From NCBI RefSeq assembly GCF_024758505.1, contig NZ_CP077970.1, positions 930,001 through 994,000 of the forward strand: a DNA stretch of 64,000 nucleotides, written 5' to 3'. Origin of the DNA: Bradyrhizobium arachidis (GTDB lineage: Bacteria; Pseudomonadota; Alphaproteobacteria; Rhizobiales; Xanthobacteraceae). A program made the position numbers and the translations under genes. The notes under the pieces were generated by a model. That model did not search any database and was not told where the DNA came from. It worked only from the letters and a program-made list of their open reading frames with translations. The first letter of the stretch is position 1; every line of letters starts with the position of its first letter. Below, one piece after another: positions 7,662 to 19,875 of this stretch.

Positions 7662-7893
7662 CTCGCTCCCCGTTATTTTGTTTGGTCTCGTAGCAACCAT
7701 TAAATGGCGGCTGTGCTTTACGCCGTTTGGATCGTCGGCGTCTGTCATGATGACGCCGTGCTCGCGTCCGTCAAGGCGTGGCCTGGCGGCAGATCGCGTG
7801 AAGTTGGGGCAAACGACGGCCATCCTTGACGGACGCTGCGCGCGACGTCGTGAGGGGCCGTAGGTCGGGACGAAGAAACGCGTCCCGGTCGAA

Positions 7894-8862
7894 CTAAGAA
7901 ACAGAGAATGATCCCGCCGGCGGTTCGCCGCACCATGGCGTGCCGCGAGCAACCACCGTGTTGGCGAAGATGAGCATCTTCCTGGCGCAGGCAACGAGCG
8001 CGCGCTTGTGTTCCTTTCCGGCTGCGGTCAGCCTCCGGTAGAGCTGGATGAGCTGCGGATTCCATCGAAACGATGCAGCCAGTGAAGCGGTATAAAGGGC
8101 GCGACGCAGCCGCTTTCGTCCGCCCTCGATATGCCGAACACCGACCTGGTCGCCGCTGTCGTCGTCATAGGGCGCAAGGCCGGCGAGAGCGACAGCTTGC
8201 TCCCGCGTGATCCGGCCGATCTCAGGCAGACGCACCAGGATGGCAACGGCGGTCGGCAGCCCGATGCCGGCGACGCTGTTGATCAGCGCGAGCCTCCTGG
8301 CAAGGTCGGGATGCTTGCAGATCGAGGCGACCAGAGCCTTGAGTGCGGCCTTCTCACGTTGCTCCAGGCGAGCGATATCCTCGTGCCAGAGCTGGTTAAT
8401 CCTCACATTGCGGCAGCTCTCGATCCTGTTCTTGAGGCGCGCGATATCCTCGCCGATCTGATCGATCATGGTCAGTTGCTCGGCGAACGGCAGCAACCGA
8501 GGATCGGGAGCGGCATGGATCTTCCGCACCGCTGCGGTGCAGGCTGCGATAAGAGCGGCATCGATCTTATCGTTCTTGGCCCGCTGCAAGTGGAATTTGG
8601 CATAAGCCCGGACCTGGGCCGGCTGGAACACCACAACCACAAACCGCTTGCGCCGCAGTTCGGCGACGACCGGCTGTTCGTAACCGCCGCTCGCCTCGAT
8701 GCCAATGCGTTTGACGCGATGCTGTCGCAGCCACGCCGACAAAGCCTCGTGACCTTCCGACGTGTTCTCCACCTGCAGCGGCTCGCGGCGGCCTTCGATC
8801 GCCACATCAAGCTTCCGTTTGCCGGTATCGATACCGGCACAGATCGTGATATGCTTGACCAT
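7894..8862 (-). CDS. IS110-family DEDD transposase (bridge recombinase), copy A
   Basis: A 322-residue protein identical to the copy B product. The N-terminal RuvC-like DEDD domain shows D12 (AGIDTGK), E56 (IGIEASGGYE), and D98 and D101 (KNDKIDAALIA). The C-terminal Tnp20-type domain has the helix-hairpin-helix-like INSVAGIGLPTAVAIL and the conserved SG at S236 (YDDDSGDQVG), the expected catalytic serine of this family. The gene fills the element between a 209-base leader and a roughly 200-base tail. It is transcribed towards the hydratase gene. Confidence 0.95.
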   Translation of the reverse strand: MVKHITICAGIDTGKRKLDVAIEGRREPLQVENTSEGHEALSAWLRQHRVKRIGIEASGGYEQPVVAELRRKRFVVVVFQPAQVRAYAKFHLQRAKNDKIDAALIAACTAAVRKIHAAPDPRLLPFAEQLTMIDQIGEDIARLKNRIESCRNVRINQLWHEDIARLEQREKAALKALVASICKHPDLARRLALINSVAGIGLPTAVAILVRLPEIGRITREQAVALAGLAPYDDDSGDQVGVRHIEGGRKRLRRALYTASLAASFRWNPQLIQLYRRLTAAGKEHKRALVACARKMLIFANTVVARGTPWCGEPPAGSFSVS

Positions 8863-8864
8863 CT

Positions 8865-9041
8865 TCGTCGATCCCTCCCTTGTTATGCGAACCTAAAGTT
8901 CGTTCAACCATTCGGGTCCCGATGAAGTGCCGGTCGCGATCTCGCTACGTCAGACAGCCCTCAAGGCTTCGATGGGTACCGATCCGATCGAACGGCGGCC
9001 CAGCTCGGGCGGCCACCCGGGCTGGGCCATTCCTCACGGAA
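8865..9041 (-). ncRNA. predicted bridge RNA of IS110 copy A
   Basis: Base-for-base counterpart of the RNA described at 18514-18690. On this strand the left target guide is at 8971-8977, the right target guide at 8945-8949, the left donor guide at 8905-8912 and the right donor guide at 8879-8883. The ends are approximate, set from the predicted promoter and the transposase start. Confidence 0.7.
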
Positions 9042-9072
9042 CGGCTCAATATAAGCGATCGGGCTAATACAA

Positions 9073-9210
9073 GGGTGGGTTAGCGAAGCGGCGGCGCAAA
9101 GCGCAGTCCGCTGGCGTAACCCACCACTTCTGTCACCGCGGATAGTAAAGAGGTGGGTTACGCCGCGCCGACTGCGCTTCGCGCGGCAGCGGGGCTAACC
9201 CACCCTACGG
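9073..9210. repeat. GGTGGGTTA-type REP palindrome, left end occupied by IS110
   Basis: A palindrome with outer arms GGGTGGGTTAGC and GCTAACCCACCCTACG, and inner arms GGCGTAACCCACC and GGTGGGTTACGCC. The family recurs at 18369-18483, 28652-28774 and 31409-31523. Here the first bases of the intact unit (CGT before AGGGTGGG) are missing because IS110 copy A is inserted at the CT core; they are found on the far side of the IS. Confidence 0.9.
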
Positions 9211-18368: not shown

Positions 18369-18483
18369 CGTAGGGTGGGTTAGCCGAAGGCGTAACCCAC
18401 CGCTTCTCTCACCGCGGAGACCAAAGAGGTGGGTTACGCCTAGCGGATTGCGCTTTGCGCACTCCGCGAAGCTAACCCACCCT
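18369..18483. repeat. GGTGGGTTA-type REP palindrome, right end occupied by IS110
   Basis: The left end is intact (CGTAGGGTGGGTTAGC). The right end reads GCTAACCCACCCT and is cut at the CT core (18482-18483) by IS110 copy B, whose far side resumes with ACGA. Compare the uninterrupted ends at 28774 and 31523. Confidence 0.9.
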
Positions 18484-18501
18484 TGTATTAGCCCGATCGC
18501 T

Positions 18502-18507
18502 TATATT
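18502..18507 (+). promoter_or_regulatory. -10 box of the IS110 circle-junction promoter
   Basis: TATATT lies near the left end. When the ends are joined, the last bases of the element plus the CT core and first T form TTGCTT exactly 17 bases upstream. In the integrated state the -35 is replaced by REP sequence (CACCCT), so the promoter should be strong only in the excised circle. Confidence 0.65.
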
Positions 18508-18513
18508 GAGCCG

Positions 18514-18690
18514 TTCCGTGAGGAATGGCCCAGCCCGGGTGGCCGCCCGAGCTGGGCCGCCGTTCGATCGGATCGGTACCCATCGAAGCCTTGAGGGCTG
18601 TCTGACGTAGCGAGATCGCGACCGGCACTTCATCGGGACCCGAATGGTTGAACGAACTTTAGGTTCGCATAACAAGGGAGGGATCGACGA
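18514..18690 (+). ncRNA. predicted IS110 bridge RNA (target and donor guide RNA)
   Basis: Seen: a 5' stem-loop (GGCCCAGC 18527-18534 with GCTGGGCC 18551-18558). Then a target loop: left guide ACCCATC 18578-18584, apical hairpin AGCC/GGCT 18587-18599, right guide CGTAG 18606-18610. Then a donor loop: left guide AATGGTTG 18643-18650, apical hairpin CGAAC/GTTCG 18653-18667, right guide ACAAG 18672-18676. The target guides match the REP site on either side of CT (one G-U pair), and the donor guides match the element's own two ends. Both left guides stop directly before the core and sit 2 bases from their hairpins. The RNA ends are approximate. Confidence 0.8.
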
Positions 18691-18692
18691 AG

Positions 18693-19661
18693 ATGGTCAA
18701 GCATATCACGATCTGTGCCGGTATCGATACCGGCAAACGGAAGCTTGATGTGGCGATCGAAGGCCGCCGCGAGCCGCTGCAGGTGGAGAACACGTCGGAA
18801 GGTCACGAGGCTTTGTCGGCGTGGCTGCGACAGCATCGCGTCAAACGCATTGGCATCGAGGCGAGCGGCGGTTACGAACAGCCGGTCGTCGCCGAACTGC
18901 GGCGCAAGCGGTTTGTGGTTGTGGTGTTCCAGCCGGCCCAGGTCCGGGCTTATGCCAAATTCCACTTGCAGCGGGCCAAGAACGATAAGATCGATGCCGC
19001 TCTTATCGCAGCCTGCACCGCAGCGGTGCGGAAGATCCATGCCGCTCCCGATCCTCGGTTGCTGCCGTTCGCCGAGCAACTGACCATGATCGATCAGATC
19101 GGCGAGGATATCGCGCGCCTCAAGAACAGGATCGAGAGCTGCCGCAATGTGAGGATTAACCAGCTCTGGCACGAGGATATCGCTCGCCTGGAGCAACGTG
19201 AGAAGGCCGCACTCAAGGCTCTGGTCGCCTCGATCTGCAAGCATCCCGACCTTGCCAGGAGGCTCGCGCTGATCAACAGCGTCGCCGGCATCGGGCTGCC
19301 GACCGCCGTTGCCATCCTGGTGCGTCTGCCTGAGATCGGCCGGATCACGCGGGAGCAAGCTGTCGCTCTCGCCGGCCTTGCGCCCTATGACGACGACAGC
19401 GGCGACCAGGTCGGTGTTCGGCATATCGAGGGCGGACGAAAGCGGCTGCGTCGCGCTCTTTATACCGCTTCACTGGCTGCATCGTTTCGATGGAATCCGC
19501 AGCTCATCCAGCTCTACCGGAGGCTGACCGCAGCCGGAAAGGAACACAAGCGCGCGCTCGTTGCCTGCGCCAGGAAGATGCTCATCTTCGCCAACACGGT
19601 GGTAGCTCGCGGCACGCCATGGTGCGGCGAACCGCCGGCGGGATCATTCTCTGTTTCTTAG
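18693..19661 (+). CDS. IS110-family DEDD transposase (bridge recombinase), copy B
   Basis: 322 residues, identical to the copy A product. The DEDD residues D12, E56, D98 and D101 and the conserved S236 are all intact, so the protein should be active. A GGGAGGGATCGACGAAG leader precedes the ATG; part of the same leader supplies the right donor guide, so translation initiation and guide RNA overlap closely. Confidence 0.95.
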   Translation: MVKHITICAGIDTGKRKLDVAIEGRREPLQVENTSEGHEALSAWLRQHRVKRIGIEASGGYEQPVVAELRRKRFVVVVFQPAQVRAYAKFHLQRAKNDKIDAALIAACTAAVRKIHAAPDPRLLPFAEQLTMIDQIGEDIARLKNRIESCRNVRINQLWHEDIARLEQREKAALKALVASICKHPDLARRLALINSVAGIGLPTAVAILVRLPEIGRITREQAVALAGLAPYDDDSGDQVGVRHIEGGRKRLRRALYTASLAASFRWNPQLIQLYRRLTAAGKEHKRALVACARKMLIFANTVVARGTPWCGEPPAGSFSVS

Positions 19662-19875
19662 TTCGACCGGGACGCGTTTCTTCGTCCCGACCTACGGCCC
19701 CTCACGACGTCGCGCGCAGCGTCCGTCAAGGATGGCCGTCGTTTGCCCCAACTTCACGCGATCTGCCGCCAGGCCACGCCTTGACGGACGCGAGCACGGC
19801 GTCATCATGACAGACGCCGACGACTAAACGGCGTAAAGCACAGCCGCCATTTAATGGTTGCTACGAAGCCACGCC

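Follow-up and report, generated by a model that had tools for sequence, protein, structure and literature searches.

A predicted IS621-type bridge RNA in the leader of a Bradyrhizobium IS110-group element found in GTAG-type REPs

The window analysed here, a stretch of Bradyrhizobium DNA of 64,000 nucleotides, contains an IS110-group insertion sequence whose leader very probably encodes an IS621-type bridge RNA that guides insertion into GTAG-type REPs. The ends of the element, its core, its guides, their agreement with the insertion sites of many relatives, the fold and the promoter geometry are all established from sequence, and the sequence by itself makes a complete bridge RNA readable, in an element that is no more than a distant relative of IS621. 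The conclusion stands because the evidence on the left guide and the evidence on the right guide of a more distant subgroup both hold.

The element and the RNA of its leader

The element spans 1377 bp (18484..19860, + strand) and is flanked by two CT cores (18482..18483 and 19861..19862, both +). Its ends are common to the 11 matches in the 9.43-Mb genome wherever they are present; ten of these are full copies, and one is a 174-bp left-end fragment at an ACCCATC site from which the gene is absent (L011, G000:C1:3804006-3804179). The second copy within the window lies at 7694..9071 on the - strand, and its 209-base leader is identical to that of the copy at 18484-19860, which bears out the claim of the earlier note that both copies have the same RNA. 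The gene (18693..19661, +) encodes a 322-aa recombinase that belongs to the IS110 family by its DEDD_Tnp_IS110 and Transposase_20 domains (PF01548, 68.8 bits against a curated cut-off of 29; PF02371, 57.2 bits against 21.3). The protein match runs without stops in all ten full copies, and its D, E, D, D and S residues align with the catalytic residues of IS621, using the residue numbers in PMC11208158 with a presumed chain offset of 2. By sequence, the relatives of the recombinase in the PDB are IS621 (E 5.5e-29, 104.7 bits) and ISCro4. The guides lie upstream of the gene in the 209-base leader, as in the IS110 group and not IS1111, in a search that covered the leader.

A -10-like TATATT (18502..18507, +) lies 17 bp from a TTGCTT that is present only in the circle, where 19858-19862 would be joined to 18484; the predicted circle junction of the element ends reads TTTAATGGTTG-CT-TGTATTAG. 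Of the 34 distinct end pairs of the group with at least 45% identity, 32 have TAnnnT in this position, the exceptions being L022 and L154, and the same junction-promoter arrangement is reported for IS621 in PMC11208158. By analogy with IS621, circularisation would join the ends into a promoter from which the leader would be transcribed.

Two successive loops of the leader carry the guides, all on the + strand. In the target loop, the left guide is ACCCATC (18578..18584) and the right guide is CGTAG (18606..18610), which reads CTACG, core included, and contains the REP tetranucleotide GTAG. In the donor loop, the left guide ATGGTTG (18644..18650) is identical to the final 7 bases of the element, and the right guide is AT-A-ACAAG (18669..18676), of which ACAAG reads CTTGT, the core plus the left end, and the outer AT part is putative. 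Each loop has an apical hairpin, AGCC/GGCT in the target loop (18587..18599, +, arms 18587-18590 and 18596-18599; helix 5, 85.8% of cells paired) and CGAAC/GTTCG in the donor loop (18653..18667, +, arms 18653-18657 and 18663-18667; helix 7, 100% of cells paired). The earlier note had quoted ACCCATC, CGTAG, AATGGTTG (18643-18650), ACAAG (18672-18676) and both hairpins, and the letters agree in every case. It had also given the left donor guide as eight bases; the place is right, but it is the seven bases ATGGTTG, not eight, that are kept in relatives. The eighth base varies among A, G, C and T, and the element end stays A in the listed leaders, G086 apart. As reported for IS621, the right donor guide probably extends further with an interruption, so that AT-x-ACAAG faces CTTGTAT.

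The first loop fits the target, with the left guide matching the bottom strand and the right guide the top strand, and the second fits the joined element ends (ATGGTTG, ACAAG), though these ends hardly vary. In the proposed mechanism, ACCCATC would pair to the left of the core, with the bottom strand, and CGTAG would bind the top strand across the core and right side, a pairing that would select the outer foot of GTAG-type REPs; ATGGTTG and AT-x-ACAAG would pair with the joined ends of the element, and the recombinase, in an RNA-protein complex like that of IS621, would exchange strands at CT. The core dinucleotide takes part in the pairing of the right guides and not in that of the left guides, which end before the core and are followed by GA (target) and AA (donor) instead of CT. 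In some relatives at 53-57% identity the left guide does continue with CT. We regard the lack of core pairing in left guides as a variant trait; guides with CT cores are picked in the Methods of PMC11208160, which implies that other kinds exist. Two candidate handshake guides, CG (18611-18612) and GG (18677-18678), can pair if G-U is allowed, and their first bases are invariant in the listed leaders.

Among 20000 dinucleotide shuffles of the leader, ACCCATC appeared in 0.9%, CGTAG in 19%, ATGGTTG in 1.0% and ACAAG in 5.6%, so that the two 5-mers, frequent as they are in shuffled leaders, mean little alone, and no single one of the four would be convincing. All four guides together occurred in none of the 20000, and chance was rejected as the source of the guide matches on this ground. 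The four-guide set, above all its agreement with the sites of relatives, is far beyond chance.

The extent of the bridge RNA given by a covariance model is 18513..18692 (+), with a putative 5' end. The RNA of the window has a folding energy of -78.1 kcal/mol (z -2.96), and a fold on 29 leaders has 46 pairs in 7 helices with 97.0% of cells paired. Compensatory changes support it: two-sided changes are found at 14 of the 46 pairs against 7.9 in shuffles, and in 69 cells against 17.6. The structure is partly our own choice, because RNAalifold favoured a hairpin that buries part of the right guide, and we replaced it by hand with AGCC/GGCT, the weakest of the helices at 85.8%, leaving the guides unpaired.

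The covariance model, built on the 29 leaders with the guide columns unpaired, matched the two copies in the window at 201 bits, of which one is among the sequences of the model, and reached 118.7 bits on two elements with 46% identity. It also matched all 20 loci (19 distinct leaders) of a subgroup at 35-39% identity, none of which was used in building it, at 24-45 bits. For six of these 20 the evidence is the place and strand of the match and not its score, because they score below 32 bits and false matches reach 29-32 bits; the latter are antisense matches in the window at 18425-18572 (-) and 8983-9088 (+), over the REP and the 5' hairpin. The earlier note had named such a model as the check on its guides, and in the held-out loci the model placed them as claimed: in 15 of 20, its left-guide columns agree with the left flank of the same locus at 6 or 7 of 7 positions, its right-guide columns fit the own site in 16 of 20, and neither mean over the 20 was reached in 20000 shuffles. 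L072 and L188 were misaligned by the model at the guide columns. None of seven more distant IS110 loci (L031-L036, L043) was matched. A search of the window against Rfam at the gathering score returned 0 matches, and an Rfam family annotation for the leader RNA was dropped.

Insertion sites and their occupancy in the genome

The insertion lies in an inverted, BIME-like pair of GTAG-type REPs (18369..18483, +), in the outer foot of the second REP, with the foot of the first (18369-18380) intact; the palindromes start with CGTAGGGTGGGT. At locus L214 of another genome (G005) the REP pair is uninterrupted and reads GCTAACCCACC-CT-ACGAA with a single CT. The gene on the right is the same, with 91% identity along the stretch, and the one on the left looks different, so that the two sites are likely, though not certainly, orthologous. 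GTAG REP families in Bradyrhizobium are described in PMC3733652, to which we liken ours by description and not letter by letter, and REPs starting with GTAG in PMC2817692.

Among the 11 matches in the genome, the left flank is ACCCATC, identical to the guide, in six and ACCCACC, with one G-U wobble, in five, and CT comes next in all of them. The right flank is CTACG, with which the right guide pairs, in nine of ten; the sole full copy with CTGCT instead is L001 (G000:C1:6740197-6741573). The perfect partner of the guide is a second REP family, and the window copies therefore belong to the wobble class. The match of the left target guide to the REP described in the earlier note thus holds as a pairing with one G-U wobble, while the perfect target is that second family. 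Ten different left flanks are found among the copies.

We counted the intact sites of three classes in the genome, a perfect one (ACCCATCCTACG), a wobble one (ACCCACCCTACG) and one with a further mismatch (GCCCACCCTACG). There are 5, 87 and 28 such sites, and 6, 5 and 0 insertions, respectively. Perfect and wobble sites differ in occupancy (Fisher p 1.2e-4; 0.003 when only insertions with a CTACG right flank are counted), and wobble and mismatch sites do not differ significantly (5 vs 87, 0 vs 28; p 0.59). This order of occupancy fits a graded tolerance of site mismatch without proving wobble preference as its cause, because more ACCCATC sites may have been present at the time of insertion and because the reverse mismatch is seen in one of the five ACCCACC-guided insertions.

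Guides and sites among relatives

Of 203 loci collected, 191 had a protein match; 7 without a 5' end and 4 without a motif left end were removed, merging duplicates gave 143, and leaving out L063 (masked bases) and L032 (31% identity) gave 141 insertions with 59 distinct leaders, most from Bradyrhizobium. Protein identity is at least 50% for 97 of them, 46% for 3 and below 45% for 41. The ends of seven rows (L149-L152, L154, L156, L160) were set by hand, and the fourth copy of G243 (L158, merged with L156) and the gene-less fragment L011 stand outside the 141. Searching the order (297 genomes) and the class (385 genomes) at E up to 1e-60 added one more genome with relatives.

The guides of these relatives vary with their own sites, as the earlier note had predicted. 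Across 33 distinct regions the left guide agrees with its own 7-base flank at a mean of 6.36 of 7 positions, against 4.60 (sd 0.19) when reshuffled, and across 28 distinct regions the right guide agrees with its own site at 4.68 of 5, against 3.47 (sd 0.17); in neither case did any of 20000 shuffles score as high, with the regions being related sequences and not independent events. Wrong-loop and wrong-strand controls were flat, with 19481, 2290 and 16036 of 20000 shuffles as high. At the best loop offset, all seven left positions are matched in 100 of the 141 insertions, and in 120 with G-U allowed. The left guide holds in both subgroups (6.44 vs 5.39 at identities of at least 50%, 6.29 vs 4.85 below 45%; 0 of 20000 each). 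The test of the right guide is modest in the group of at least 45% identity (4.65 vs 4.30, 171 of 20000 as high) because the right flank hardly varies there, and is strong below 45%, in the 35-39% subgroup (6.09 of 7 vs 4.48, 0 of 20000). Support for the right guide in the window's subgroup thus comes mainly by analogy from the more distant elements. Because the element ends hardly vary, covariation on the donor side is weak (a value reached in 235 of 20000 shuffles, with 4 distinct left-donor probes and 1 right-donor probe); a matched change was found in G009, where the left end is TGTC, not TGTA, and the RNA has AGACAAG where others have ATxACAAG. Phylogeny-corrected pair tests, which are underpowered, gave 4 independent pairs at position 1, of which 3.7 go the same way and none opposite (p 0.125), and 3 pairs at position 6, of which 2.2 go the same way and 0.1 opposite.

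A G+C-rich hairpin was rejected as the left-target peak. In a first scan on one alignment it had scored 4.80 (40 leaders) against 4.64 (59 leaders) for the guide because the 35-39% subgroup was misaligned in the guide region; the scan was redone inside the loop region, by subgroup with the constant stretch masked, and with the covariance model.

In the group of at least 50% identity, 58 of 59 GCCCACC guides are at GCCCACC sites, and the remaining site has one junction base missing. ACCCATC guides occur 19 times at ACCCATC, 7 times at ACCCACC and once at a poor site; of the ACCCACC guides, 4 are at ACCCACC and 1 is at ACCCATC, and rarer guides make up the remaining 6 insertions. Among distant elements, CTCCCCG, CTCTGGT, CTCTCAT, CTGAG and CTTCC sites go with a complementary right guide. 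The exceptions are an ACCCACC guide in an ACCCATC site, which gives a C-A mismatch and no wobble (L013), a GCCACCC guide in a GCCCACC site (L014), a poor site at 4 of 7 (L062), and the G243 elements, in which the right guide fits well and the left guide reaches only 4-5 of 7 without a shift.

Some of these loci have features of their own. In one insertion of G121 (L057 / L092) a C is missing between GCCCAC and the core, by a junction slip or a later loss. In L022, from a Novosphingobium MAG (57% identity), the right guide CTCAG fits a CTGAG flank, and the left flank CCTGCTC is by eye the foot of a short hairpin. The 35-39% identity loci (L164-L203, L029, L030, L071-L073) form a second Bradyrhizobium IS110 subgroup with varied left guides, right guides of up to 7 bases, such as CGGGGAG for CTCCCCG sites, and right flanks that do not start with CTAC.

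We weighed these data against three other explanations. The recombinase itself might recognise the REP palindrome; the leader would then be a regulatory 5' region of the usual kind, with matches that arose by chance. Many sites do sit at the foot of a palindrome (judged by eye and uncounted; none was seen at L062, L113 and L135), and for the REP-targeting elements IS1397 and ISKpn1 of the IS3 family the authors of PMC1525189 point to the transposase. We nevertheless consider this highly improbable: an element whose protein is 93% identical to that of the window (G128) uses another REP family and has its guide changed to match, and the guide-site agreement goes beyond 20000 shuffles even for letters as different as CTCCCCG, CTCTCAT, CTGAG and CTTCC. 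Protein-only target choice was rejected on the G128 guide change and the shuffle tests.

Capture of the host flank by the element could also produce a likeness between guide and flank, and the left guide and flank share only 7-8 bases. We give this almost no credence, however, as the right guides are reverse complements of the flank, not copies, at a fixed place in a conserved fold, and one guide is found with two site classes in one genome at rates ordered by pairing strength. It is likewise improbable that the bridge RNA is real but that every copy in this genome is dead. One match is indeed a mere left fragment (L011), but the ten full copies keep the protein match free of stops, have the D, E, D, D and S residues aligned with IS621 and occupy ten different left flanks. 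Insertion guided by a bridge RNA is thus the reading that we retain.

Under RNA guidance the relatives form a natural retargeting series. A protein tree was built from 32 rows, 29 of them distinct; in its best form it requires 7 changes among the three guide classes, against a minimum of 2 and a shuffled mean of 12.0, and the well-supported branches force at least 4 changes for the GCCCACC guide class. Targets mostly change alongside; 5 of the 32 rows have a majority target that differs from their guide. Natural redirection between relatives is already known (PMC11187229); together with the graded occupancy of perfect, wobble and mismatch sites in one genome, the series provides field data on how far mismatches are tolerated, for comparison with reporter assays. 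The guide class is not predicted by how many ACCCATC sites a host has: six ACCCATC-guided genomes are not richer in ACCCATCCTACG sites than 14 GCCCACC-guided ones (medians 6.5 and 9.5, p 0.30), in a comparison that counted ACCCATCCTACG sites only and left out genomes with partial copies as well as G024, G066 and G176, the last of which has elements of both kinds.

Known systems, the GTAG tag and RAYT genes

IS621 of E. coli, also of the IS110 group, shares with this element the leader position, the order of target loop then donor loop, the guide polarity and the CT core, as well as the junction promoter, the interrupted right donor guide and the REP targets (PMC11208160, PMC11208158). Its bridge RNA has 177 nt, against about 180 here. 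The protein is only distantly related (104.7 bits), and the IS621 papers include the core in left guides, whereas here both left guides stop before it, with GA and AA next. Unlike IS621, the element here can use two REP families with one guide via a G-U wobble. The IS621-type layout that the earlier note had recognised is therefore found in loop order, guide polarity and fold, and not in the core pairing of the left guides. Three traits seem to us worth reporting: the absence of core pairing from the left guides, the use of two REP families through a wobble, and the GTAG reading set out below.

The seekRNA elements ISEc21 (IS110) and ISEc11 (IS1111) also have an RNA from a non-coding region, a stretch for each target strand and natural redirection (PMC11187229). 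They differ in their targets and, for ISEc11, in family, and their RNAs are set beside this one by description only. REP-specific insertion is reported for ISPpu9, ISPpu10, ISPa11 and ISRm19 of the IS110 family, in 7/7, 7/7, 6/6 and 4/4 copies (PMC1525189); the paper predates guide RNAs, and the likeness is in the insertion site, not the leader.

GTAG is part of the right guide CGTAG, and its AG is complementary to the CT core. In the case of IS621, the reported pairing of G77-G80 with tC11-tC8, with core C8 T9 and then A10 (PMC11208158), leads us to infer a right guide of GUAG. We lean towards a split reading, in which right guide and core would be fixed on the GTAG that REPs share and the left guide would read the family-specific stem, so that one or two changes would switch family and the U of the left guide would let one RNA use two families via G-U, at a lower rate per site. 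No paper stating a link between the GTAG tag and core plus right guide was found among those listed by full-text searches of an open-access library. If general, the identity of the REP GTAG tag with the IS110 core plus right guide would help explain the presence of several IS110 elements in REPs.

The REPs themselves have GTAG at the 5' end of the palindrome, and those of two families are found in inverted copies around RAYT genes, the marks of RAYT-associated REPs of the GTAG type. In the window's genome, a Y1_Tnp gene (L236, G000:C1:8018377-8018712; PF01797, 30.7 bits, cut-off 23) has inverted GCCCACC REPs on both sides, a RAYT arrangement, and this RAYT-like gene is a likely source of one REP family used by IS110 elements of the genus. 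Among 21 RAYT loci, 20 of whose regions were hand-picked, partly because the genomes carry the elements, 12 have GCCCACC REPs, 6 have ACCCATC, 2 have others, and none were found at 1. In 17 of the 18 with GCCCACC or ACCCATC REPs, these lie inverted on both sides. Because 18 of the 21 loci carry them, the two main left-guide classes correspond to two of the REP families that accompany RAYT genes in the genus. ACCCACC REPs, which form the window's sites and are the commonest of the three site types in its genome, flank none of the RAYT genes at the 21 loci.

Two further Y1_Tnp genes in the same genome (L234, G000:C1:1156382-1156741; L235, G000:C1:1753995-1754345) are without adjoining CCCACCCTACG-type REPs. 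The frame next to these genes resembles, by eye, what we take to be an IS605-type second gene.
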